Below are positions 6,735 through 54,300 of a stretch of DNA of 64,000 nucleotides, in pieces; position 1 is the stretch's first letter, and every line of letters starts with the position of its first letter. Origin of the DNA: Struthio camelus (lineage: Eukaryota; Chordata; Aves; Struthioniformes; Struthionidae). A program made the position numbers and the translations under genes. The stretch lies in NCBI RefSeq assembly GCF_040807025.1, contig NC_090967.1, forward strand, positions 7,928,001-7,992,000, in the 5' to 3' direction. A model generated the notes under the pieces. It had not been told where the DNA came from and did no database searches. It was given only the letters and a program-made list of their open reading frames with translations.

Positions 6735-8730
6735 GGGACAGGAAGCTCTTTGTGGGCATGTTAAATAAGCAGCAATCTGAGGAGGACGTACTCCGGCTCT
6801 TTGAACCCTTTGGGGTCATTGATGAATGTACGGTGCTCCGTGGACCCGATGGTAACAGCAAAGGTGTGAACCTCTCTATATGTTGTGCCCCTTTCTCTCT
6901 GCTCTTCAGGTCATGCTCGCCTGCCTCGCTGCCTGTGCCTCCCACCTTGCCCTGGAGCGCTTATCTCCCACGCCATCCTTTGGAGCCAGGCTAGAGGAGC
7001 CTGCAGCCCAGCCAGACATGGGGAGCAGGGCAGGGAGAGTTATCTGCTGCAAGGACAGCTTGGGGAAGATGGGATGAGACCTGGGTGACGGGGGGGAAAG
7101 CAGAGAGGGATGAGTAGCAGCTAAGTTACCAGGATCACTAGTGAGCCATCTGGCTCAATCTGGAGCTGCGCTTTGAAATGTTTTTCACTCCCAATTAGGA
7201 GTGCATGAAGAGTTTGGGGAAAGGGGGGGAATGTGGGGAAAAAGTAGAGATGGTGACATCATCTATAGGGTGTATCACTGAAGTGATGCTTTGAGCCCCT
7301 TCCAGTTTTTCCAGAATAGGGTACTTGGGATGAGTCAGCCTATTTGTCTCCCACTTTCTCAGGGTAGCCCTCCTTTGCCCTGCCTGAGATCCTGATACTG
7401 TGTCCTGCTCAGCTCTGCAGATGGCAGCTTCACAGCAGCCCTGTCACTGCAGTCTCCTGTGCTCTTTCTGTCCCTTTCCAGGCTGTGCTTTTGTAAAGTT
7501 TTCATCCCACACAGAGGCTCAGGCAGCAATCCACGCACTCCATGGCAGCCAAACAATGCCCGTGAGTATGAGGCCAGGGTACCTACCCTCTTCCCAATCC
7601 TCTTTCCCATCACCTTGTGGAAGGGAATGCCCATCACTGTTGGAAAACCAGGGGATTCCACTGCAGTTTGCAGCTGGTTTGGTTGGTGGGGGGGGGGGGG
7701 GGGGGGGGGGAGGGTTACATCCATGCTCTTGTCTTTGGGAACCATCCTATCTCCTGGGCTGGTGTGTGTGTGTGTGTCTATGTCTGTCCAGAGTGGTAGT
7801 GACGGCCCTTATGTTTATAAAGACTAAATTAAAGAAAGCCAAGGACCAGGCCATGTATCCATCCTGGAGACAGCTATCTGGAAGAGTTCAAAATAGAGCA
7901 AGGTGCAAGCTAACAATTCAGCAATGTGAACAGTCAGGGCTCCAGTGCCTGCACACGCTCTCCGGCCTTCTGTTATCCAGGAGGTACCGGCAGGCTCTGG
8001 GGCAGGCTGGGTGTAGGTGAGAATACCTTGTGCCTTGTGTGGGGCTGTGCAACCACAGCTGTGGCCTCTTGTGCAAGTGGAGCTGCAGTTGTGATCCGGT
8101 CACTCTCAGTCTCTACCCTGCATTGCAGCAGCTTGTGGGCAGGACAGTGAGTTGCTGCAGCAAGGGTATTTGCAGCTGCCAGGACCTGCTCTGCCTGTCC
8201 AGCCAAGCTCATGATGGTGGAAAAATGGTGCTTGTGCCTGACCATTGCCTGGGTGTTCCTGGCTGCTGCCATCCAGACACTTGGCAAATGCAGCCAGGCA
8301 TGTGCACACCTGCTTGTGCAGCTGTGCCTGCCCCAGTGTGTGAGGGGCAGGGTGGGAAGGGGAAGGGATGGATGAACAGATGGATGGATGGACAGGGAAG
8401 GGAACAGCCCAGGTTCCAGGCAGCTCCTGAGCACTTTCACTCCAGCAGTCTTCTGCTCCTCTTCCCGCTCCTCTCTGCTGCCTGTTCTGCCCCATCCCGC
8501 CCTGCCTGACTGCTGCCTCTCCGGCTGTCCCACGGCCTCCTCTCCCCCTGCCTCTTCTCTCTGTCTCCTCTCTCTGTGCCTAGGGCGCCTCCTCCAGTCT
8601 AGTGGTGAAGTTTGCTGACACAGATAAAGAGAGGACCCTCCGTCGTATGCAGCAAATGGTGGGGCAGCTGGGGATATTCACTCCATCTCTCACCTTGCCG
8701 TTCAGCCCATACAGCGCCTATGCGCAGGCT
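6735..8730 (+). CDS. CELF5: CELF5 exons encoding RRM2 (three exons)
   Basis: The exons at 6735-6863, 7482-7561 and 8584-8730 encode RRM2. RNP2 (KLFVGMLNK) is in the first and RNP1 (GCAFVKFSS) in the second. The third carries the last strand ([21 protein letters not shown]) and the start of the linker. The introns are 618 and 1,022 bp. The 80-bp middle exon is not a multiple of three, so skipping it would shift the frame and destroy the domain. Confidence 0.92.
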
Positions 8731-14700: not shown

Positions 14701-15810
14701 AGGGGACCTTCTTCCCCTCTTTGCTGATGCTAGAGTCACGCTAGTAACAGTCAAAGTAGGCTCTCCAAGGCACCCTCCTCTCTCCTCAGCCTTCGCAGCC
14801 TCAGGGTTTGTTTTTCAGCTTATTTCAAAACTCATCTGGATAGAATTTGGACCTAAAGGAATCTGTCTGCTCCTGCTTCACACAGCAGGTGCCAGGAAAA
14901 GGACAGCTCCCTGTGCTTATCTGACTCACAGGGACCAGGTCAGCCCGTAAGTAGGATGTATGGTAACTGAGATTTCCAGCTGGGGCTGTGGCTCATGGGT
15001 CAAATGCAAATACAGTTGCAGTTTCCATGCAGAGGTGCCTGCTGCTCTGGGCAGTGCTGAGCAGGGGTGGGAGAGTATGAAGAAGGAGCTCTTGCCTCAG
15101 CTGATTTCTTTCCACAAAACAGCACCCAGACACTGTCAGAGACTTGTCATGCCCAGCACCCCAGGTGGGAACCAGGAAAGCTGTGATAGCCAAATCTGCT
15201 CTCTATAACCTCTAGTTCTGCATATTGCCTCCCAGATGCTGTTGGACAGCCACTAGAGCCCTTTTCTTTGGACCAGTGATGGAAAGAAGCCAGCAAGGGG
15301 AGACTGAGACAGCCAGAGGCAGTGCTGAGGTTTTCCTCCAACACTGTGCTCTGAGCTGAGCCTATTTCTCTTCCCCTTTCCTTTGGGGGCTGTTTGTGCT
15401 TGGTCCCTCCCCATTGCCCCCATGCCTGCAGGTCCTGAAGGCTGCAATCTCTTCATCTACCATCTCCCTCAGGAGTTCGGAGACAATGAATTGATGCAGA
15501 TGTTCCTGCCCTTTGGCAATATCATCTCCTCCAAGGTGTTCATGGATCGTGCCACCAACCAGAGCAAGTGTTTTGGTGAGTGCTGATGCCCCCAGGCAGG
15601 AGAGCATGGCAGATAACTAGGACACTCATGCATATGGCATAGAGCCAAGAGTTATTGGCCATGCCTGTGTCCTGTCCTTCAGGTTTTGTAAGCTTTGACA
15701 ACCCATCCAGCGCACAGACTGCTATCCAGGCCATGAACGGCTTCCAGATTGGCATGAAACGTTTGAAGGTCCAGTTAAAACGACCCAAGGATGCCAACCA
15801 TCCCTACTGA
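6735..15810 (+). CDS. CELF5: CELF5 (CUGBP Elav-like family member 5), C-terminal nine coding exons
   Basis: CELF5 is a nuclear and cytoplasmic RNA-binding protein that regulates alternative splicing, mainly in brain. Coding exons: 6735-6863, 7482-7561, 8584-8730, 13484-13628, 13828-13974, 14155-14217, 14305-14388, 15432-15575 and 15683-15810 (TGA at 15808). All are bounded by AG/GT and the phases join without error, giving about 354 residues. Human CELF5 has 485, so RRM1 and the N-terminus lie upstream. RRM2 shows KLFVGM and GCAFVKF, and RRM3 shows NLFIYHLP and CFGFVSF. Between them lies the divergent domain, rich in Q, P and hydrophobic residues. The ending [10 protein letters not shown] is close to human CELF5. 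CELF3, CELF4 and CELF6 share RRM3 but fit the linker less well. The assignment to CELF5 rests on recall of the human sequence plus linkage to other 19p13.3 genes. Confidence 0.93.
7688..7710. repeat. G23 homopolymer in a CELF5 intron
   Basis: Twenty-three uninterrupted G residues on the + strand, 127 bp after the donor of the second CELF5 exon seen here. The run would lie on the non-template strand and in the pre-mRNA, so it could form a G-quadruplex in DNA or RNA. Its exact length may be affected by sequencing error. Confidence 0.9.
8366..8393. repeat. Imperfect (GGAT)n microsatellite
   Basis: About seven tandem GATG-like units with one interruption, in the CELF5 intron before the exon at 8584. 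Confidence 0.8.
11060..11090. repeat. (AAAC)n microsatellite
   Basis: Seven to eight perfect tandem AAAC units. Confidence 0.92.
13426..13457. repeat. Perfect 15-bp inverted repeat with two CACGTG cores
   Basis: The left arm is 13426-13440 and the right arm 13443-13457, separated by two bases (CT). The arms are exact reverse complements. Each contains CACGTG, the palindromic E-box core bound by bHLH-zip proteins such as USF, MYC and MAX. The structure ends 26 bp before the exon at 13484, in the region normally occupied by the branch point and polypyrimidine tract. In the transcript it would fold into a very stable hairpin. Confidence 0.95.
13484..14388 (+). CDS. CELF5: CELF5 divergent-domain exons (four exons)
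   Basis: The exons at 13484-13628 (145 bp), 13828-13974 (147 bp), 14155-14217 (63 bp) and 14305-14388 (84 bp) encode the linker between RRM2 and RRM3. The last three begin and end in phase 1 and are multiples of three, so each could be skipped without a frameshift. That suits a region known in CELF genes for alternative splicing. Recognisable pieces are [36 protein letters not shown] and a QQQQ run before RRM3. A histidine after VLSTS (TSHGSYL) is extra relative to my memory of human CELF5. Confidence 0.9.
15432..15810 (+). CDS. CELF5: CELF5 exons encoding RRM3 and the C-terminus
   Basis: The exons at 15432-15575 (144 bp) and 15683-15810 (128 bp) encode RRM3. RNP2 is NLFIYHLP and RNP1 is split by the intron (CFG then FVSF). 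This is the most conserved domain of the CELF family. The protein ends [16 protein letters not shown], followed by TGA. Confidence 0.95.
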
Positions 15811-22110: not shown

Positions 22111-22779
22111 CTAACTACACCAGAGTAGCGTTAGGAAAGCAAGAAGCCACCAGACTGCAAAAACAGCAGGCTGCCAAATTGCCAGAGCTCCGCCAGGCAC
22201 ACTGATGGTCTTGGATGAGGCATGTAACATAAGTCTGCTGGAATACAAGGCCTTCAAGTCTTCCAAGGCCCCATGTGCAGCCATGGAAAATTCAGGATCC
22301 CCTGTGGTAAGCAGATCAAAGACACAGGACTGGAAATACACATCCTCCACCTGCAGGATGCGATGACATTGCTCAGTGGCTGTTTCCACTGTGTACACCC
22401 GCTGGGAGCTAGGCCAGAGAGGGCTGGAGTTGCTCAGCTGCAGCCTGTGCTCCTGAATCAGCTCATTCTTGGGGCAGCCATGCAGGCAGAGCTGAAGGTC
22501 AGGGCTCTCCTCCGAGAGATTCAAAGTCTCCTCCGGCACACGAATGGCAAAGGTGAGGTAACGACCCACCTGGCGGATGATTATAGTGCTGCCAATGTAA
22601 TGGGCCTGGATCTCCACTTGGTTGGAGTCTGACTTCTCCAGGATGCGCAGACTGCCAGCTCCTTCCTGCTGCCCACCATTTCGTGTGCCATCACTGAATG
22701 CCAAGGGCAGGTCCTCTGCGGTAGCCTGGTAGACCTTCTGCTCTGTACATCCCTGGTAGCTCTTAAAGATCAGTGTGAT
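22111..22779 (-). CDS. RGMD: RGM exon 3: vWD-like C-terminal part and GPI signal
   Basis: Residues 204-425. The exon begins [11 protein letters not shown] (RGMB has ITIIFKAHHEC) and runs through [19 protein letters not shown] to [14 protein letters not shown]. It ends in a tryptophan-rich hydrophobic tail suited to GPI transfer. Where RGMA, RGMB and HJV have the sequon NFT, this protein reads EFS (residues 366-368), so that glycosylation site is missing. Other sequons are at N290 and N320. Confidence 0.9.
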   Translation of the reverse strand: MTLIFKSYQGCTEQKVYQATAEDLPLAFSDGTRNGGQQEGAGSLRILEKSDSNQVEIQAHYIGSTIIIRQVGRYLTFAIRVPEETLNLSEESPDLQLCLHGCPKNELIQEHRLQLSNSSPLWPSSQRVYTVETATEQCHRILQVEDVYFQSCVFDLLTTGDPEFSMAAHGALEDLKALYSSRLMLHASSKTISVPGGALAIWQPAVFAVWWLLAFLTLLWCS

Positions 22780-25700
22780 CTGTGCAGAAGACAGGGCAAA
22801 AACGGCATTCAAGCAGATTAGAATTCACTACAGAACTTCTTTCCCATTGAACCTAGGACTTAGACAGTGGATTCACTACAGGAGTGCTGCTTACAGCAAG
22901 ACCTCCAGTTCACTGCTACTGAGAAGCCACATCACCTGTCCTCCTTCAACCCTCCATGTCCCAACAAGGGCCAAACAACTTCTAATTAGATTCCACACTG
23001 AGTCATTCTCACAAGTTCAACAGCTTGTACCCCTATAGAGGCAGGGGAAAAGAGACAAATCCCTGCAAGATCTTAACTCCACAAACAGTGTATTTTACTG
23101 CACAAGAGGTGATGGTACTCATCTGGACAGACTAAGAGGTCTCCACTCCAGGCAGTGCTCAATTCTCTGGGCACCAATATGGAATGAGCTTTTTTTTTTT
23201 TTTTAACCCCCCCCCCCCCCCCGAAGGGAGGCAGAGAATTCACTGAGGAAAATCTGCAGGATGCTCATTTGCACTGGTCATGTGACAGGGAAGAGGTTGG
23301 GACCGGATGGCAAGTGCCAGCTTTGCCCTACACCCCAAGCCACACAGCAGAACCACACAGGCACATTCCTACAAAGTCTGACATATGAGCATCACTAGCA
23401 GCCCATCTCCCACCCACGCTGCACACCCAGGGAAGGGCACATGGCCAAGGCTGTGGCTGGGAACGATGAGCAAGGGAGAGAGACCAGGAAGTTTCCAAGG
23501 ATTAGGAGTCAAGAAATCCTTTAGAATGACACTGCCTTTTATCTTAAAAGTGCACACACTCTGTCTGCAGGTCTATCCCACCCAGAACAGAAATGTCTGT
23601 CACCATCAGTCTCCAAAGGTTCCTGGGTAAACAGCAGCTAGTATAGACAGAGACAAGTGAGTAGGGACCTGAGAGCAAGGACCAAAGTCTGAAAGCCCCG
23701 AGACTTCTGCTTTACACAGCTCCAGTTATATCACTGAGCAGCCTGAGGTACACTTTCTCCACTGCCACAGGAGCCATGGTATCTCTGGTTCCCAGCAAGG
23801 CAGGAGAGGCCCAGGGCCTCCAGAATCCCTGCTTACAGACACCCCTAGCCAGAAGTTAAGGACACCTGCCCCGACCCACGTCTGTATTTGGCTCTGAAAG
23901 GCCTTCTCACTCACTTGACTACCTTCCCAACTCCTGCAGCCCCCTGCATAGTTGGGCAATACACAAGAAATGTCTCAGCTCAGACCACATCTGAAGCTTT
24001 GTAATTGAGGGCTTCCCAATTGCTGAGGTTTTGGAGGTCCTGGTCCAGGTTCCTGCTGTGACAACCTAAAAGGATGTTACCTGGAGAAGAACCAGAAGTT
24101 CCAGCCAAGCCCAGGTGAGCTGTCCACAGCAGTGGCTGCAGGGAAGAGAATGGCCCAGACCAGATCAGAGTAGCTTGAGGGTTTGTCTCAGGTTCTATTT
24201 CTCAATCCTTAAAAAAGCAGAAGTTTGAAGTTTCCTTCAAACTTCAGGAAGGGCAACAAGTAGTCACTGCACCCACCCCACAAGCTGCAATGGTGCATTT
24301 CCATGAGATCCTGCTGCAGGAAGGGGCAGATGGACAAGACGAGCATCCTACTAGCTCTACCATCCAACACTCAAATCAAGAAGTAAGTCTGGGATTCGCT
24401 ACTGCTGACATCTAGACCAACCATCCAGCCCAAGCACTGCTCCTCCCACTACACACCAGAGGAGATGCTGCCTCCTCTGTAGATGAGGAGTTAGAGAGGG
24501 CTTTTCTGGTGCCAGCTCACCTGCTGCAACCTACTGAGGAGACAGACCTGGCACACAGAGAAGCAGAAATCAGCATCCCAGAGAGCCCCTTTGGGGGGTG
24601 AGGGGCTGCAGAGCAGAAAGTTCAGTCTTTGCAGCCTTCCACCCAAGCATTCAGCCAATGACACTGAAGCCAAATAATGTTTGCCTCATCTTCTGCCAAA
24701 GCAGGAGGCAGCGAGAAAGTGAAGAGCCTCATTCCTCAGTCTGGACATGCTATGGCAGCCTTACTGAAGCCAAAAAGGATCCACAGATGCTCTGGATGGG
24801 GATCCACAAAACTTATGCTTCCAAAGTCCAGAGAAAAACCCATTCTGCTCTTCCACTGGAGAAAGTCTGTGACCCAGCTGAACTACTCACCTCCCAGCTG
24901 GGAGCAAGGAACTCCACACAGCTGGTTTCCAGAGAGGGAGACTCTTCTGGTGTGCAGGATGCCAGCCAAATCTGGTATGGGCCTTCATTTTGAATACACA
25001 AGAAAATACACCAGTTTTGAAACTGTTATTAAGGGTTACCACAGCTCTGCTGTGGAAACAGGCACTCCAAGCTCTGCTAGGGCTTCAAAGGCAAAGCGAT
25101 GAACATGAAACTCTGCATTAGATACAGAACCTCCAAAATCATTGCAGCAAGAACACTGTGTTGTCAAGGAGGGTCAGAATCAACCCTTCAAGTTCTGCAC
25201 TCCTTTAACATCATCTTCCAGATACAGGACTTGCCCCAGGACACCCCATTCCCTACATTGACAAGACTGTCTAATCCCTACATAGGGGCAGCGGGTGACC
25301 AGGGCACAGCAGTCCCACTGCAGGACGCTACTAAGCATGAAGGCTTTTTAGCTGCCCTTTTACCTTGCTGGTGGCTGTGGCGCTGGATCCAGTCACCACA
25401 GGAACATTAGTGACCTGAACAGACAAGTACTGGTTGTCTATCAATGGCCACGCTCCTTCTACTTTACAGGTCTGGAACTCATCCTTAAAAGTCCTTAAGT
25501 GAGGATCCCCAAATAATCCACAGTGGGCAAACTTCTTCCGAAAGCTGGAACTCTTCTCATAATCACATATCTCAGAAACAAGAGGGTCTGGAGTGCCTGG
25601 GGCTCTCGCTGAAGAGGTAGGCCCATCACTGGAGCAGTTGTACTGGGAAAACAGTTCCTTTATCCTGAATACAGCAGAGTGGTACACCAGGTCTCCTCGA

Positions 25701-27937
25701 CAGGACTTGGCCGTCTTCCTGGTACACACAGAGTATGCTCGCAAGGCAGTGCAGTAATCCGCATCCAAAAGCGCATCCTCTGGCAAGGCATTGCTAGAAG
25801 TGGCAGCTACATAGTCAGCGTTGCAGCACTGGATTCTGCACTGCTGGCAGTGAACTGCAAGGAGAAAAGGTCATGGTAATCAGTTAGGAATTGAGGGGTT
25901 CAGTGGTTAATCTCTTTTACCCACCAAAGCTTATTTTATGCAGCGGTCAGAAAAGGAACCAACTCCTGTGAGTGAGTGCGAGTGAGCATTTTTACTAAGA
26001 TATTATGCCATGGCTTTGGGATTGTATGATTAAGTTCACTTGGCACTTGGGAGCTCTTTCTCCAAAGTATTTCACAAGTCACAACTATTAATGCCCGGAG
26101 ACAGATAAATTACAAGGAAAAGCAAAAATAAAACAGGCTTCTCTCAAAATCAGACCAGGACAAAACATTTTCACACAAGCTTACAGGATTTTTTTTTTTG
26201 GGGGGGGGGGGGGGATTCTTTTTAAACAAACTCCTCCAACACAGGAAAATGAAGAGCAAACTTTTAGAAGTTCTTCATCTATGGACACCACACACACTTT
26301 AGTGCTATGTATATGTATTCAGGACAGTATCTGTCAGGACAGCACAAGTCCACAGCTGTGCTGACACTGTAAAAGCTGACTTCCAAACGTTGGGTAAGAG
26401 TCACTGAAATTTGCCAAGTCACAAGACCCACTCCTAATTTTTATTGTTAGGAATAAAAAACACTAAACTCAAATAGATTTTATCTTGCATTAGAAGTTAA
26501 TTCCTCAGCCCCAAAGAAGGGCTAGTTTACTGTCACTCTGCTGAGAGTGTGCCGCTTTGCAACAACCCAACAAACTCTTATGGTGTGTAAGATTACTCTG
26601 GAGGCATGCTGAGTAACACATATCCTTTGGTATCTTAAACCAAAAATCAAATTGTTCAAGCTTAAAAAACCCACATAACACACAAATCAATGCAGTTTTC
26701 CCCGGGGTTACGTATTAGCAATACAGCAATGTTAAACCTAGCATACAAATCTATGCTGATTAGCTGCAGACCCTGAGCACACACTATCTGTTTCTCTAAG
26801 AGGTTTCCCACAGCCACATACAAAACGCGTGGATGTAACGCATTCAGTTTGTTCTAAAATCCTACATGTTAAGCCTGCTCTTGCGCCTCATCACCCCTAA
26901 GTCAGCAAAGGGAAAAGTTGCCTTCCATCGCCACAGTGCAGCTTATTGGGGGCCAGAATAACCAATTTGTCCAACAGATCAGGCATGAGATGAGCTGGAG
27001 TTCCTGCTCTGTTCTCAGTTCAGCTGTGAACAACTCGTGCCTTCTCGAGCAGGACTGCCTGGCCCAAGGCTTATGTAATGTGTTAAATTCAGGTGCACAA
27101 GACACCCAAGATCTTACTTGTATGAACAAAAAGACCATCTAGATTTTAGGCTACAGAGCAGGGAAAAGCAGAGAGACCCACTACCACCACTTGTCCTCCA
27201 TGTCCTTGAGCGCCAGCCTGCAAACTGCAAAAAACAACCCATTTCCCTCACAACTTCCAAAGCTGCCTGAGAAATCAGCAGCAAAGGGAGCTGCTCGCCA
27301 CCTTCCCAGCCTCATCTGCCTCCTCTGGCCTTCGACTCCCCGTCGGCGCGCTCCCCCGCAGGCCCTCGCCCATGCTCCTGAGGCGGTCGGGACAGAGGAG
27401 CAGGATTCGGGACCTTTTAAAAGAGAGGACAACCAGGTGAAAACTCCAAATCTGAGCCGAGATTTTAAGGGAAAGAGCAGGAGCTTAAGATCCAGAACGA
27501 AGCGTCTGAGACCCCAACCCAGGCCTCGGGAGAGCCCGCTCTCACCCGCCCGTCACAGCCCCGCGCTCCCCGCGGCCGCCCGGCCCCGCCGCCCCCCAAA
27601 GGCGCCTCCGTGCCGCCGCCGCCGCGCTTTCCTTGGCGGAGCCGCGCACCCGCCCCTCGCCCACAAACCAACCGCCCGGCACGGCGCGCGGCGGCGCGGC
27701 CCCGGCCCCGGCCCCGACCCCGGCCGCCTCAGGGCTCCCGCCGCCGCCGGGCCGCCCGGGGCTCCGCCGCGCCAGGCCCCGCGCCCCGAGCGGGCCGCCC
27801 CGCGCTCCGGCCCCTCTACCTGCGGGCGCGGGCACGCAGCAACACAGCGACACCAGCAGCACCATGCCGAGCAGCCGCCGCCGCCCCCGAGGCGGCGCTA
27901 CCGGCGCCGGGGCGAGGCTCGGGGGCCGCACGCCCAT
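22111..27937 (-). CDS. RGMD: Repulsive guidance molecule, fourth paralogue (RGMD-like), complete
   Basis: RGM proteins are GPI-anchored ligands of neogenin and co-receptors for BMPs. Exons: 27820-27937, 25364-25854 and 22111-22779, all GT/AG and in phase, giving 425 aa. The three-coding-exon layout and length are typical of the family. The product has a hydrophobic signal segment (about residues 25-40), a Cys-rich N-terminal domain, and RGD at 92-94. A sequon lies at N112, and the FGDPH autocleavage site has its break between D156 and P157. A partial von Willebrand type D domain follows, and a hydrophobic tail (about 400-423) fits a GPI signal. Residues 160-300 look most like RGMB, but RGD is shared with RGMA and HJV, and the furin-type RNRR site of HJV is absent. 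The CELF5-MICOS13-SAFB neighbourhood is not that of RGMA, RGMB or HJV. Fish have a fourth gene, rgmd, so I infer RGMD. The start was chosen for its signal peptide, although the frame stays open upstream. Confidence 0.85.
23190..23222. repeat. T15-AA-C16 paired homopolymers in an RGM intron
   Basis: A T15 run, two A residues and a C16 run. On the transcribed (minus) sense this reads G16, TT, A15. It lies in RGM intron 2. Confidence 0.9.
25364..25854 (-). CDS. RGMD: RGM exon 2: Cys-rich N-terminal domain and FGDPH cleavage site
   Basis: Residues 40-203. The mature N-terminus contains CRIQCC (RGMB has CRIQKC), then [22 protein letters not shown], the YHSAV block, sequon NCS at 112-114 and [12 protein letters not shown] at 151-162. 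It ends with [19 protein letters not shown] and SSATATSK at the donor. The acid-labile D-P bond of the family is present. Confidence 0.93.
26189..26214. repeat. T11-G15 paired homopolymers
   Basis: A run of 11 T directly followed by 15 G, in RGM intron 1. Confidence 0.9.
27820..27937 (-). CDS. RGMD: RGM exon 1: signal peptide
   Basis: 39 codons plus one base. From the chosen ATG the protein reads [10 protein letters not shown], a basic stretch (RGRRR), then [18 protein letters not shown] before the donor GCAG/GTAGAG. A second in-frame Met at residue 25 would also leave a signal peptide. RGMB likewise has a long N-terminal extension before its hydrophobic core. The exon lies in a CpG island. 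Confidence 0.75.
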
Positions 27938-28037
27938 CCCGCCATCGGCCCCGGGCGCCGGCGCCCTGGCCCGGCCCGGCCCGGCCGCGGCGCCCGCCCC
28001 GCCCCGCCCCGCCCCCGCCGGGCGGGGCTCCGGCCGC

Positions 28038-28296
28038 CGCCAATGGAGAGGCAGCCCGCCATAACTGCTTTGCATATTAATAAAGCCGCCGCCAATAAGC
28101 GGAAGCGGAAGCAGGCTGCCGCCTTCTGCAGAGTGAAAGATCCAGCAGCCAATGAGAAAAGGAAAAGCGGCGCCCCCCTCTTGCATATTCATAAGCCTCC
28201 GGCCAATAGGAAAAGCGCCAGAGCAGGGCGATCTGCAGCCAATGGCAAAGCCTGCAAGCATAGGTGGTTTGCGTATTCCTCCAGCATCAGCCAATC
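28038..28296 (-). promoter_or_regulatory. Three repeated CCAAT-octamer-CCAAT modules upstream of RGM
   Basis: Six CCAAT boxes occur at 28040, 28092, 28149, 28203, 28239 and 28291, all in the same orientation. Between the members of each pair lies an octamer-like element: CTTTGCATATTAATAA near 28068, TCTTGCATATTCATAA near 28179, and a weaker GTTTGCGTATTCCT near 28267. CCAAT-to-CCAAT spacing within a pair is 52, 54 and 52 bp. CCAAT is the NF-Y site, and ATGCAAAT on the minus strand is the POU/octamer consensus, matched 7 of 8 in the first module. The flanks align loosely (GCAGCCAATG twice), which suggests old tandem duplication. Confidence 0.8.
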
Positions 28297-28480
28297 CAGT
28301 GCTGACTGCGGAGGCGGGCGCGGTCCCTGCCGTGGCAGGCACCGGCCGCGGGGCCGTTCCGCCGCGCCGCCAGGCGGCGCCGGTGCCGCCGCGCCCCGCC
28401 GTCCAGACGCGTCGAGCGCGGGAGGCGGGAAAGGGCCCCGCGGCGGCGCCGAGCGGCTGCTCGGTGACGTTTGGCGCTTC

Positions 28481-28499
28481 CGGCGCCAACACCGCCTGG
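28481..28499. promoter_or_regulatory. Inverted E2F-like element
   Basis: TTGGCGC, five bases, then GCGCCAA, preceded by TGACGT. Each arm fits an E2F half-site core (TTTGGCGC on the left). It lies about 540 bp upstream of the chosen RGM start, at the edge of the CpG island. Confidence 0.5.
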
Positions 28500-35720: not shown

Positions 35721-38700
35721 GCTGCGGGCGTAGACGCATAAAGTAAACCCTGGGAAGGCCCCGGGGGTACTTGGTTGCCGAGGGAGCCCTTTCGGGCCTG
35801 GATGTGCCGCCCGCTGGAAGGGAGAAGTTGTGGAAGGGTGTGTTGGGAGCGAGCAATACATCTTAATCAAAGAAATCCCCCAAATGCTTGTGAATAGCCG
35901 GGTTTAACTATCGATTCGCTCCTTCCTCTCTTAGTGGCTGTAGCTATTAAGTGCTCTGCTGTCGTGGTACTGCTCTCTGGCAAGTTCTCTTTTTGCCAGG
36001 TGTGCAATTGCTGTTTTTTCAGAGGGGGAAATGCTCTCTGCCCTGTGAATTTTTGGAAAGATGTTGTCTCTCAGGTCTCTTATTTATAGTGAAAAAATAA
36101 TTAAGGATCAAATATTTTCTTCCACTTTGCGAGTTGCCACTAGTGTTTTCACACCATGTGCTGCACTGGGAAGCTTTACAGGCACAAGCAATGCAGGAAC
36201 AGGCATGGTCAGATGCTAACTGGACTGTAATGAGCTTAACAAAAGATTGGTGTCTGTCAAGGTAATCTGTGTAGTTATTAGCCAGGCAACAAGAACCATC
36301 ATAAACATGGATTTCTTACCCACAGCTAAATCTGTTAGTCCCTTTTTTCAAGAGTTTATGTCATAATTCTCAGACTTTCCAAAGTGGCACATATTTAGAG
36401 AGTTTTGACAATTTCACCTTTTTTTCTTCACAAGTGTCACTGATGATATGTGAACTGGGGTACAGTTTCAAGGGGCTGACTGGGAATATTTGATCTAGGA
36501 AAAAGGGGAGGACAGCTAGCTATCTTTCTGCTGTTTTTTGACACTAATAAGACATCACAGTAAAACATTTGTGACCTTCTAACTGCTCTTTCAACCCTGT
36601 TCCTTTGCGTGTCACAACCTGCTGGGAAAGGTGCACTGATATATATAATGTGAACTGACCTGTTCACGTGCTTTTAATTCTTTCAGGTTTGTCATCAAAG
36701 GAAGCCTGGCTGGAGCAGCTGTATACGTGGCATATGATCAGGGGCTGCTGGGCAGTGGCACACAAGGTGCTGAAGCCCTCAAAAAAGCTCAAGAAGCACT
36801 TCCTCCAGCTATCCAAGAATGGACAAATTACATAGGCTGGGAGGTAAGGACTGTGCAGGTGAATGTAGTTAGCAAACCATACACATTCTCTGAATGAAAG
36901 CACTGGGAAGGTATTCTGGTTCCAATGACGTTGACGAAAGTTTTGCCGTTGAATCTGGATTTCACGCTGAGAATGTTTTGAGGAGGATTGAAATGGAAGA
37001 AGGATACAATTTTAAACCTAGAGGAGAGCAATTGGTCATAGATCTTATTTGAAAGAAGAGATAGAAAGCCTATGCAGGGATATTTCACTATGTAGTGGTA
37101 TTCCTAAGCTTTTTATTGGAGTATCCTATGTGCTTTTCAAAAATTAATGAAAAGATTCTCTTCCTTAAAGAACTGTTTTTGTCAAGCTCCTAACAGTCAA
37201 GTTGGATGCAAATTACCTGAGTAGTCCATTGTCTTTGAGCAGTCCTTAGTTTTTTAAATCTCTCAGACTAGGAGAAGCCTTTGAAGGTTTGAAAATCATT
37301 TTCCATGTTGGAGATTATAATGTAACTGTAAGGAGACAGCTACTTAAGTAATTGAGTGGATGTGTTTTCAAGAGCACCCAAAGGATGAATACTGCCTTCT
37401 GCCCCTGCTTTATGCTGTGGGAAAGGTTACTTCGAGACTTTAAGCCACATGTCTGATCCCTTTTGAGACTTAGGACGACTGGGCACCTAAATGTCTTTGA
37501 GATCTGAGTTCAAGAGGCTTCTCCAAGGTGATGTGGATTGTGTTATAACTGAAACTCCCAAATGCTGATATTTTGTCTCTATTTCTTTTTATAGCTTCCA
37601 CCCACTCCAAAATTTGACTTTTCTCCCTCTGACTCCTGGAATAAAGGTAAAATAATTTTTCAGCAAACTGTGAAATGGAGTAAGGGGCTAAAAGTGATCT
37701 TATCCTGAAGTCTTGTTTTGATGTTGTCCTCGTAAAGTGAATGGTGAAGAAGGGGTGATAGATACTATAATCTGGTGAAAGGAGCATTGGACTGGGACTA
37801 AGGAAGTGTATTCTGCTCCTATTCTACCATTAGCCCACTAGGTGACTTTAGGCAGTTCACTTCATTTCTTGATACCTCGATTTCCAACTATGAAGTGAGG
37901 AGGAGGAGATGTGCCCATAAACCTGTCTGCCTTTTCCAACTGGAGGAGCTAATGTTTCTTCTACCTACAAAACTTGCTTTACCTGTGTCCCAACACAGGT
38001 ATGCCTACGCTATGCCACAACATGAGATTGAATGTTTCAGTAGTGTTTGGGAGTCTGTGGTCCCATGAGAACTAGATACAGTTTATGCACCAGTAGGGTA
38101 AGTTCATCATTGCAGATATTGATCAGGGAAACGAGAGCGTAAAAAGAAATGATCACTTATTTCTGAGAATGCTGAATCTTTATGTAAGGTTGAAGGGTGT
38201 ATAAATTCTTAATACTACTAGTATGTCTGAATTCAACCTCTGATCTTTTCAAAAGGGATGAGTGTTCTTGTTACTGCTAGAATTTTAGAGAGGACAAAGC
38301 ATGTTATAAATATCTTGTAAGGTAATTCAGAATTTTTATGGTGCAGCAAATAGTCCTCATGTAATTAAGGGGAAACACAGTCCACAAATACTGTGACTTG
38401 TCCAAAACCACCTGTGGAGTCTGTGGCAAGGCCAGGAATAAAATGAAACTTTGACAAGTTTCAGTTCTTTGTTTTAATCTTGTAATTATCTAACCCTCAT
38501 ACTGGTCGTGAAGTTGGAGTTTCTCTGTGTTAGGGTCTACTGAGGCAATAAAATTCAAGGATCATTCAAGCCTCTGTCTATTTGAAAGCTTCTGGGATAA
38601 AGCTAAATTTTTCTCTCTGTGTTTTAAGAGATCCATGATGCTAGAGTAACATTAGTAAATTTGGCTTGAATGATGCTCTTCTTGGGATAATTCTCCTTTG

Positions 38701-48300: not shown

Positions 48301-51300
48301 CGCTGTTCTGCCTCTCTCATTTTTCGTTGTGCTTTAATTTTGTCAAATGGGACAATGCCTTGTCTCTCTCTGCTTTCTGATTTGCGATCCTGACTCTTAA
48401 TGCTCTGTATTTAATATTGAAATAGAAAAACTTAAGGGAGTACATTTACAAAGGGAAAACTGTAACAAACAATAATTTAATCAGTATTTCCATTCATACA
48501 TATATGTCAAAGCTTGGTCCCCACATTAAAAAAAAAAAATTGTGCTTCTTTAACATTACAGAAACATCATATAATTAACACAAAAGACTTAGGTTCCCTC
48601 ATTTAGTTTGGCTGGATTTCATTGTTGAATATGGTATCAGCCATATGAAAAGTATTTTACTAATTAAGATCCAAATCCATATTATAGAAACTCTCATCAG
48701 AATCAGTAAGTATAGGTTATATGTAGCTTGGCAGGATTCAATATCTGTTTCTAAGCAAAACTGATATATAGCGTTCCTCTGCAGAAACATTACTTACTCT
48801 GTCTTTTGATGTAGTTGATGTTTTCACACTAATAACAGGTTCTCCTTTAGATTTATCCATTACTACAGTTCTCTCTGTTCCTTTACTTCCTAAATAAATT
48901 GGACGTTGAAGGGGAAGGGATGAGGGGGGAGGGAAAAAAAACCCCTATATTACACAGGCCATTCTTTTCAGTGCTAGAAGTCATCTCCTCTAAAATGTGA
49001 AACAGGCATTTAGTCCTCTCTTCAAAAAACATTTCATCACCTACAACTATTCTAAGCACTTCTGTTAAGGATGAAACAATGTCACACCCCTCTGCCCTGC
49101 GCCCACCCTGCCCCCCGCCCCCCCCCCCGTAAATTGCACTATTCAGATTTCCACCTGAGAAGCTCAACACATTCTAGAAACACTGTCAGGTTTGAAAAGA
49201 ACTAACTGCTATTAATTGTTCACATTTAACCATGTCTTTTACACGTTGAAAAAACAGTAGCTAAATTACCTGATTTGGTAGTTTTAGGTTGATCTGATGA
49301 ACCAGGCTTCAGTTCATCTTTATCTTTTCTTTCTTTTTCATCTTTGTCTTCTGTTTTTTTAGAATCATCTTTTTGGTCAGATTTCTCATCCCTTTTAACA
49401 CTGCCAGCTCTATAGATAGATATCGATACAGATTAGAGTGATACTGAGTAAGAGAAAAGAAAATTGAGAGAGAGAAAAAAATGCTAGCAGCACAATAACA
49501 AAGTAGAGTTCTGATGTGCTAAAAGAGTCAGAGATTTCTACAGATTTCCTTCTACAACTCCTTCTGCTGTAATACAAAACAATTAGACCACGCTATGCAG
49601 TTTTCATAAAAACTTGTCTGAGATTCAGGTAATTCAGCTATATGCAAAATGAAAAAAATCTATACTACCATGTGCTTAATGCCCACAAAGATTCTTATAA
49701 GAAGACATGACAATTATGAAGTGCAAATGTGAAGCATTTTTGTGGTGCTGCTGCCAAACACAAGGAAGTCGATACTACATAGTGACCAGGCAAGCCTTTC
49801 TGAGCACTAGATGAACTACAGGCCAAAAGGTTGCCAGCAAATAGCATTTAGTAGGAATTATTATGCAAGAAAATAATTAAAACAAAGGACTTAACGTCTT
49901 TCAGCTACTCTCACTAGTACTAAACTGAAAAAAGCGTAGTGCTATAGAAGAATGTATTCTGGGAAAAGGATCTTGGAAAACTGATCTTTAACTGTGATGG
50001 CATCAACATGAAAAAGCCCTGTTCTCATGAGTAGGATTTAAAGGACAGAGTGACACATTGCTCACAATTCTCAAATGGCCTTTTCCATAGATTTATGACA
50101 ACAGAGTATCACAATCTTTTCTGAAAAACAAATGTAGCTAAATTAAAAAGCATTCTTGAAATTGCAAGATTCATTGACTAGCGTAAAGAACATAATGGAA
50201 ACATAGAAGCTAGGGGCTGAACATGAACAGAATTATATTTTGTAGTAAAAGTTGGAAAGATGCACTTTTTTTTGGATATTTGCCACAGAGATTTCTTAAC
50301 CTAACTTTGTTTTTTCTGACAAATCAACATGAATTGAAGAACAGCAAAACATCTACGGACACAGAATTTGTAAAACAATACCTCTCATTGACTGTTTCTT
50401 TCTTCGCTTCACCCTCTTTTTTCTCAATTGGCTTCTTCCCAGCAGGTTCACTTTTTGCCTGAAATTTATTTTGCACAGCAGCTGAGAATGTGATCTCCAT
50501 TGTTTGTACAATCTAATGGTGATGAGATATCTTTGGGGAACGGTACTCACTTTTTCTACAGAAATTATTTTCCCATGTAACTCTGTTTTGTGGAGGTGAG
50601 TAATACATTTTGTTGCTTCCTCAGCTGTAGACATTGTAACAAAGCCATAACAGCGAGCACCAGGACTACGAGCATTGGTGACCACTTTTGCACCAACCAC
50701 CTTTCCAAAAAAAGAAAGATGTATTAGCCTCATTGTAATGAGTACCCACCATTTAACAGCAAGTACAAGCTCCATTTCCACTCTGCTTTATTCCTGTCCA
50801 TCATCATTTTTGGGACATCTACTTTTAACAGATAAACACAAAAGAAGTATTTCTTGGAGTCAAGCATTCTTCTGTTGCCAATGCAATGCTGCAAAAGCTG
50901 AATCAATAGAGGGCACCCAAAGAATAAACTCTGTTTTGAACAAAAAAAAATTTAAAAAGGGCTAACTTGATATCAACAACATCATTTTGCTGAAGAGCAA
51001 CAAAGGGAATAAGAGCCTAGTACAAATTTGTAAGACACCTTCCACCCACATGCTAATAATGCTCTCTCAACAATCTGCTAAGTCCCATCTCACCTTCAAA
51101 AAAATGTTGCTTTTTGAGTCACTGCTAAGAGGCAGACACAGAATGTTATCTGTAATCCTGTTTAAGAAACAGGAAGTTTTCCCAAAGAAATATAACTTTT
51201 AAAGGTCTACAGAAAATACCTATGTCTTTTTGTAAGTGTTGCTTACTTATGCAAACAGATTTAATACAGCTCACTCTGTATTAGAGAAATAAATTTCACA

Positions 51301-54300
51301 GAAGCTTCATATTCTAAAGTACAGCTGAATAAAGAACATACTTTTGAACACTGTATTTACTGCAGATATACTTTTACCTCTTGCAAGCTCTGCTTCTGTT
51401 AATACTCCAAAGAGAAGAACAATAATTTTATTTAAACGACTAAATGTTACTAATGCACTTAAGCAGAGGCAAATACTGAGGTGGCTGTCATGTATTTTTC
51501 TTTAATTACATATTTTACATTCTGTGCTATTTCTCTATGGCCAACACATTCCAGCTTACCAGACAGAATTTTGAACAGATAAATGGAAGACAAATACTGC
51601 ATTTTTTTTTAAATGATATGCAGGGGAAAAAAAAGGTTTGATTTAATTTGCAAAAAGCAATAGTTGCACAACATTCAAACAATCTCATAACTGTGCTACA
51701 CTTAATTCATTTTTGTGTTTATTGCAAGGTTGCAGTTTAGGTTCTCCAGTATTTTAGTTAAACATTCAGTAACCCATTGCTAGCACGTACAGTTTTCTCT
51801 AACTATAACCTGCTGACAAAGTCATCTGTAAATAAGTTTCAAGGTTTTTAGAAAAATACTTAATAATCAACTCAGTGCAAGAAAAGTTATTAATTCTGGC
51901 CCCTGTCTTCTATTAAACTAGTTCTTTCAACTTCCCAATTGATAGGGAGATTTAGTTTGCCGTTTTGTCTATCATTAAGAACAACTGTAGTAAAAACACC
52001 CAAAGAAGCACTTTTTTAAGCAACGGTGTCATCGCGAGACAAAAATAAATCTTCAAGTACTGAGACAGTTTTTAAATGCTCCACAATAAATATGTTTCAA
52101 CATATTTTACTTAGTCCTAAAATGCCTCTAATAAACAGTGTTAAGCTCACTGTTTACTGTGAATTCCCAATGAGTGAAGATATTATGATAGTACAGCACA
52201 GGAGACAAACATATTCAAACAGTCATCAGCTGTCATAAAGGACTGGAAATGGAATTTTACTTTTATTTAGCAAAGAAAATATACAATAAAAAAAGTTTAG
52301 GCAGACATTCAGTATGAACTTGTGCAACCTTTTTCTTGTTATCCCACAATATTTTTGATAATTCAGTTCTTTTTACTGGTATGGTAAAAAGAAGTGGCAG
52401 GAGCATAAGAAGTCTTAATAAGACAGAGTCAAGTGAAAATACCGAAAAACTCACCTTCCCATATTTGCTAAACAGATTCTTCAAATCTGTAGCTCTGGTA
52501 GTAGAGGCAAGTCCACTCACCCAAAAGTTTCTACTAGAACTGCCAGCATTGCGACCTAATTAGAAAAACAAAACAAAATCCAAAACCCTGATTATTTCAA
52601 GAACTATTTCTAAATCAAAAAGGAGCTGTTCCACAAAGCCTTCATGTTTTAAAACATAGAGCAAATGAAGTGTAACATTCCCCTCCCCTCCAGTGTTTCA
52701 TGTACCTAAAGGCAATTAGTACTTGAAGTCCAAAATCTTTAAGAGGAAGCTACAACCTTTGGTATGTGTGACCGAAATATGTTATGCGACCGAAATATGT
52801 TATGTCATTCTTCAGAGACGCCTTAGCTCAAACAGTTTTGTTATTTGGAGTAACCATGGCTCCTCAGAACGTGTCTGGACAGATCCCAAACTCTGCACTT
52901 ACAGAAAAAGGCTGAAGACCTGCAAGGTCTGCAGAACTGTGTTAGTACCCGTGCGTGCTGATGTCTTGCCCTCCTTACCTCCAGGACTTCAAAGGAGTGA
53001 TGATGGGATGCAGATTAACCATACCTCTCAACGAATGACATTCACCATAAAGAAAGCATGAAAATCTCTCTCTGAATTTCTACTCTCAGGGATTCCAACT
53101 GGGGTACCAACAGTTCACCCATCACTTCAGTTGAAGGAGTCAGAAAAGTCCTGGTTTAATTTAACTACATAAGAATTGCAGAGCTCCCAATCTGGCATCC
53201 GAACTAGGAAAATTATTTTTTAATAAATGTTTACAAATTTGTAAAAGCTGAAAATCCAGGACCTAGTGATTAATAAGAGTTCAAATTGAACTCAAATGCT
53301 GACATACAAATTTCTAAAGCACAATTATTTCTTAGGCAGTACAAGAAGGTTGCTCATACTTTAGATATATCTGATGTTTGAGGGAAAGAGAATAGGTGCT
53401 GGTAGATGGCAAACTGCACTGAATGACTGACTTAGGCTCATCTCCATAAACTCAGCTGTGACAACCAAGTCCAACCTATTCTTCCATAATTTCACCGATT
53501 CCCAGTTGAGTTCTCTTTCACTGAGGAATGTACTAGAGGGAAATCAGGAAAAAATCGTTATCCCTTTTCTAAATGTTCTCATATACTCAAATTTTACTAT
53601 TTGCTGGTCAACTTGAAGCACTTAAGTTGGGATACTGTTTCCAGTCTCCTTTGAAATATCTTTACTGTCCTTTCAGTTCCATAGGCCTCCATGAACCATG
53701 TGAAGCAGGTCTCAGTCTAGCTATTTGCATTTGTGCCAAAAGCTATTTTGCTTGGAGGTATAAGAAATTTCTCAGAACTGCTTTCAGAGAGGGGAAACAT
53801 TTCTTCTCAAAAAACACAAGATTTTTCAGAAAATCCATAAAAAGAAAAGCAGATTTTTTTTTGGCATAAATAAATAAATAATATCCAGAAAGAGGAGGTT
53901 AATTTTGGATATTTAACAACTGCATAGATTCCAATGCTTTGCTGCTAAAATACACCATCTAATACAAAAACAGTGTTTCCTGAAACAATTCTTAGATTAT
54001 TTTAACTTTTATTTTTAAAAAGAAACATACCTTTCTCATCTTTTGAGGTTATCTTTGTATCTGCATCCTCAACAGGGCTAAAGACAAAAAATCATGTTAT
54101 TCAAGTCAGAAAGAAAAATGACTAACTATAAATTATGAAGATGCTAAAATTAAATACCTACCAGAAAAAATGTTGCAAACAAAAACACACCTTTGTATGC
54201 CTGATTTAAGAAATCTGACAAGAAATAAGGGAAGTCAGATTCTTAAACAGACTTATATTTGGAAGAAGTTTAAAAATAAGAGTAATTTAAGAAAACAACC

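Follow-up and report, generated by a model that had tools for sequence, protein, structure and literature searches.

A fourth RGM gene, probably RGMD, intact in a bird genome

The RGM family includes RGMA, RGMB (DRAGON), HJV (RGMC) and a further member, RGMD, which is described from zebrafish (rgmd) and elephant shark as a fourth class apart from the other three and near RGMB (available text of PMC10605842). Its presence in the elephant shark indicates that RgmD is older than tetrapods (same text). Papers from 2011, 2021 and 2023 state that RGMD is found in fish only (available text of PMC3024971, PMC8123821 and PMC10605842, respectively), and the most recent of them calls it absent from tetrapods and says that most genes adjoining fish RGMD stay on the same chromosomes in tetrapods. 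No report of a tetrapod RGMD was found in the literature searched, of which parts of texts were available and whose scope excluded subscription journals and annotation databases. A precedent for the recovery of a gene thought missing from birds is avian IRF3, which was detected in palaeognaths but in none of the neognaths studied (available text of PMC12220609); IRF3 belongs, however, to an unrelated family. For RGMB, residues of the BMP/GDF-binding loop and of the NEO1 site are named in the available text of PMC7354924 and PMC8063088, the latter noting that NEO1 binding is impaired when A186 is changed to Arg. The number of cysteines in the family is given as 14, and human RGMA and RGMB are placed beside the convergent neighbours CHD2 and CHD1, in the available text of PMC6370684.

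The DNA analysed here (hereafter the window) is a 64,000-nucleotide stretch of the Struthio camelus genome (C26:7928001-7992000 in a 1.45 Gb assembly of 262 contigs), and its minus strand carries an RGMD-like gene of three exons at 22111-27937, encoding 425 a.a. followed by a stop codon (22111-22113). Exon 1 (27820..27937) contains the ATG, a predicted signal peptide and the first splice donor; exon 2 (25364..25854) encodes the N-terminal BMP/GDF-binding domain with its RGD loop and the start of the C-terminal domain, including GD/PH; and exon 3 (22111..22779) encodes the remaining C-terminal domain and a hydrophobic C-terminal tail, the putative GPI signal. The two introns, 1965 bases in phase 1 and 2584 bases in phase 0, are bounded by consensus GT-AG sites (CAG/GTAGAG, TTGCAG/TTC, AAG/GTAAAA and CACAG/ATC). 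Over exon 1 and the region upstream lies a CpG island (27500..28499), a putative promoter, with G+C of 0.85 and 0.69 and CpG observed/expected ratios of 1.04 and 1.01, compared to 0.35 for the window as a whole. An earlier note on this DNA had proposed a complete 425-a.a. RGM gene with a signal peptide, RGD, FGDPH and a GPI tail. The spliced model, with its canonical splice sites and open frame, confirms the gene and places its end points exactly where that note had them, and both motifs are present (residues 92-94 and D156-P157). The two ends are indeed hydrophobic (means of +2.23 over residues 22-39 and +1.46 over residues 405-425), and the signal peptide and GPI tail stand as predictions from that hydrophobicity. 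Several homopolymer tracts, possible sequencing trouble spots, were also noted, namely T15 and C16 two bases apart (23190-23222) and G15 (26200-26214) in the RGM introns, and G23 (7688-7710) near the CELF exons.

The encoded protein is a member of the RGM family with both of its domains, as Pfam RGM_N (PF06535) matched exon 2 (E = 1.7e-24) and RGM_C (PF06534) matched exons 2 and 3 (E = 2.4e-30 and 1.9e-66), far above the cut-off. The best match in the PDB was RGMB (7e-57 for exon 2 and 3.7e-59 for exon 3), which is the sole RGM represented there by a long chain. Human RGMB is 59% identical to the window protein over 340 residues and shares its domain layout and 14 cysteines, these columns being common to the window protein, the RGMA, RGMB and HJV proteins encoded elsewhere in the same genome (hereafter own A, B and C) and human RGMB. 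The BMP/GDF loop is kept (RGMB R100, G101, L103 and H106 correspond to R92, G93, L95 and H98), as is the NEO1-site alanine (A186 to A174), and the D168-P169 cleavage site of RGMB aligns with D156-P157, where cleavage would be expected. This numbering appears sound, given that mapping onto human RGMB recovers the residues listed in the available text of PMC7354924 (F162, F166, R172, Y268, E270, F281, A292, R100, G101, L103 and H106). Unlike the window protein, RGMB has RGN in place of RGD and lacks counterparts to the N-terminal C42 and C49; a further extra cysteine, C424, lies in the tail of the window protein. The RGD loop is common to RGMA and the window protein, and RGMA and HJV share with it the position and phase of the exon 2/3 intron, but both are only 47–55% identical to it. 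No RXXR motif occurs in the mature window chain, compared to three in own A and two each in own B and own C. RXXR is too crude a pattern to demonstrate processing, and in the own A, B and C sequences scanned one or two residues at the junction of exons 2 and 3 were mis-spliced. Modelled singly with AlphaFold and without alignments, exons 2 and 3 gave poor structures (mean pLDDT of 42.6 and 37.3, respectively).

An intact frame could also belong to a relic, that is, an RGMD that is no longer functional, either a recent pseudogene or an unexpressed gene. The minor GDF5-contacting face is partly changed relative to RGMB (F162, Y268 and F281 to H150, Q257 and I270), as a relic might show, whereas the absence of any stop or frameshift, the consensus splice sites and the CpG island at the gene start speak against one. 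When neutral decay was simulated (500 runs at each of five substitution levels, counting stops only), the frame remained open in 39% of copies at 2% substitution, 8% at 5%, 2% at 10% and 0% at 20% and 30%. This argues against long decay; a very recent loss stays compatible with the open frame, and expression is not proven by it. We regard a relic as improbable, if marginally the strongest of the competing explanations considered here.

Across the assembly, RGM_C gave 10 matches, two exons at each of five loci (C12, C40, C41, C30 and C26), and RGM_N gave five matches at the same loci. The C40 and C41 regions are almost the same sequence (99.66% identity across 17,423 aligned bases), and the genome therefore contains four distinct RGM genes: an RGMA-like gene on C12, an HJV-like gene on C30, an RGMB-like gene on C40/C41 and the window gene on C26. 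Thus, two Pfam models locate separate RGMA, RGMB and HJV genes outside the window. When exon 2 of the window gene, the C12 gene and the C30 gene was searched against the PDB, the top match was always the long RGMB chain; among the N-domain chains, the C12 gene was nearest human RGMA and the C30 gene nearest human HJV, narrowly (3.3e-32 vs. 2.6e-30 for RGMA). The C12 gene is 82% identical to human RGMA over 91 residues, the C40/C41 gene 83% identical to human RGMB (293/354) and the C30 gene 71% identical to human HJV over 79 residues. A search for the CHD1-like domain PF13907 returned four matches (C12, C40, C41 and C16), of which those on C12 and on C40 and C41 lie convergent to RGMA and RGMB, about 15 and 33 kb away, respectively. 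This fits the human CHD2/CHD1 arrangement and so supports C12 as RGMA and C40/C41 as RGMB, whereas C26, in addition to being a different chromosome from that of RGMB, showed no PF13907 match in this search. The remaining PF13907 match (C16:19551641-19551820) is on a contig without any RGM match. In the hemojuvelin-like gene (C30:3041039-3042758), exons 2 and 3 are open, RGN takes the place of RGD, and Ser occupies the position of RGMB A186.

The doubled RGMB region (C40:32586000-32605999 and C41:51920000-51939999) lies on contigs of 70 and 90 Mb, on both of which the HCN, MEF2, CELF and CHD-domain matches are likewise doubled, while the RGM, HCN, CELF and MEF2 loci off these two contigs are single. 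Given that genes are doubled there, in near-identical sequence where the two contigs were compared, and that the RGMB, HCN, MEF2 and CELF members concerned are presumably avian Z genes, C40 and C41 look like the little-differentiated Z and W chromosomes of a female, a condition found in ratites such as the emu.

Phylogenetic trees were built from exons 2 and 3, with exact splice joins, of the window gene and own A, B and C, together with human sequences from the PDB (the ectodomain of RGMB and N-domain fragments only of RGMA and HJV). In the maximum likelihood (ML) tree, the window gene stood alone and grouped with none of the RGMA, RGMB or HJV pairs. Support (SH-aLRT/UFBoot) was 99.8/100 for own B with human RGMB, 94.2/95 for own A with human RGMA, 92.7/96 for own C with human HJV and 99.1/100 for the split of A and C from B and the window gene. 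The N-domain tree (seven sequences; lowest support 82.1/77) and the C-domain tree (five sequences; lowest support 89.6/89) agreed with weaker support, and nesting inside RGMA, RGMB or HJV, which the earlier note had named as fatal to its reading if the genome held no other copy of that gene, was seen in none of the trees tested. An AU test over seven trees kept only the ML tree, rejecting all four nestings of the window gene (with own B, human B, own A or own HJV; p < 0.001, and p < 1e-7 for both RGMB nestings) together with the two trees that made it sister to the A pair or to the HJV pair (p = 0.006 each). The SH test, which is more conservative, rejected the B and A nestings and retained both sister placements (p = 0.165 each) and the tree joining the window gene to own HJV (p = 0.073). 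On the evidence of the tree and the AU tests, the window gene would have parted from the other three RGM genes earlier than the divergence of birds and mammals. Its attachment on the RGMB side agrees with the closeness of RgmD to RgmB published in PMC10605842 (available text). When relatives of the exon-2 alignment were sought in a viral collection (viral_contigs) and a prokaryote collection (genome_contigs), 11 and 46 pattern matches were returned, respectively, none of which was confirmed as RGM.

The gene neighbourhood bears on the same question. On the plus strand, the last coding exon of a CELF gene (15682..15807), probably CELF5 by its position, lies on one side of the RGM gene, and a MICOS13 (QIL1) exon (36733..36885), the only such match in the genome, lies on the other; the proposed placement between CELF5 and MICOS13 accordingly holds, with the name CELF5 resting on position. 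The RRM exon of the CELF gene (15329-15583) matches CELF1 and CELF2 in the PDB. A minus-strand gene near 50–52 kb, which we take to be SAFB-like, has a generic RRM (50356-50787); no Pfam family matched its 52266-52559 segment, and the 10 PDB matches of its exon were to other proteins, most of them of RRM type, and not to SAFB. In human, CELF5, HCN2, MEF2B, MICOS13 and SAFB are located on 19p13. Three four-member families, HCN1-4, CELF3-6 and MEF2A-D, were picked from human map positions and searched for in the genome using PF08412 (which we take to mark HCN), the last CELF exon of the window and PF00319 (likewise taken to mark MEF2). All three families placed one member each on C12, C26, C30 and C40/C41. 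In six-frame translation, the MEF2 match on C12 includes one stop, and the match on C30 is partial. Of two extra matches, the one on C5, with 79% identity to the CELF exon, is consistent with CELF1/2, and the other, a weak PF00319 match on C3, is consistent with SRF. The suggestion that this locus is the expected place of a fourth ohnologue in the paralogon is thus borne out in this genome, as three of three further families share the four chromosomes of RGM. Such a quartet of RGM, HCN, CELF and MEF2 chromosomes is the pattern of 2R whole-genome duplication and supports a 2R origin of the RGM family.

These data bear directly on a second explanation, that the window gene is a lineage-specific duplicate of RGMB (or of RGMA or HJV) and evolved rapidly once birds and mammals had split. 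Its attachment on the RGMB side and its best PDB match would suit such an origin, the latter with the limitation on long chains given above. However, own and human RGMB are 83% identical across that split, compared to 55% (202/366) between the window protein and own RGMB, the AU test rejects the nestings with both RGMB sequences, own RGMA and own HJV, and the window gene sits on the fourth chromosome of the paralogon. A recent duplicate is therefore hardly likely, slightly less so even than a relic. As for an assembly error or contamination, the contig, 8.03 Mb long, ends about 80 kb from the gene and both introns carry homopolymer tracts of 15–16 bases, but an indirect check by copy number and neighbours found it single copy in the RGM_C and RGM_N searches, flanked by CELF and MICOS13 and accompanied on its contig by HCN and MEF2 members, and we consider this explanation negligible.

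Given the separate RGMA, RGMB and HJV genes, the lack of nesting and the chromosomal quartet, the interpretation as a fourth paralogue is supported, and the window gene is very probably RGMD, preserved intact in a bird as the fourth RGM ohnologue from 2R. Its putative identity with fish rgmd is drawn from published descriptions of the fish genes. The gene adds a member to a known family, in a lineage where it was not expected, and does not amount to a new kind of system.

RGMD of the window most likely sits in the membrane on a GPI anchor. The R-G-D-L...H loop would allow its N-terminal domain to bind BMP/GDF ligands at their site for type I receptors, and neogenin (NEO1) would be bound by its C-terminal domain, probably cut between D156 and P157 with the halves held by disulfides. 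Like RGMB, it would thereby act as a modulator of Smad1/5/8 signalling and of guidance through NEO1. A GPI-anchored, RGMB-like BMP/GDF co-receptor and NEO1 ligand is the best-supported mechanism, with binding, anchoring and expression all predicted from the conserved features described. A further reading, which we hold tentatively and rate as slightly less likely than not, is that some sauropsids at least express RGMD as a functional BMP/GDF co-receptor that also binds NEO1, and that it was missed as tetrapods were thought to lack it. With two additional N-terminal cysteines and a mature chain free of RXXR, it would then stay in the membrane and act in the manner of RGMB, unlike RGMA and HJV. 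In zebrafish, rgmd is expressed in the notochord (available text of PMC10605842), morphants had a smaller liver without lowered hepcidin (available text of PMC3024971), and crispants showed necrotic midbrain and hindbrain tissue, with no retinal projection defects in mutants or crispants (available text of PMC8123821). The earlier note had suggested effects on iron or axon biology; as far as the available texts go, these results do not speak for a function in iron handling or in retinal guidance.

An intact tetrapod RGMD alters the history of a clinically relevant co-receptor family, and the gene is notable for the lineage in which it survives. If mammals lack RGMD, as the available text of PMC3024971, PMC8123821 and PMC10605842 says, its loss would have occurred on the mammal side after the split. 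The finding raises the question of which sauropsids keep RGMD, and offers a natural system for comparing all four RGM ohnologues.
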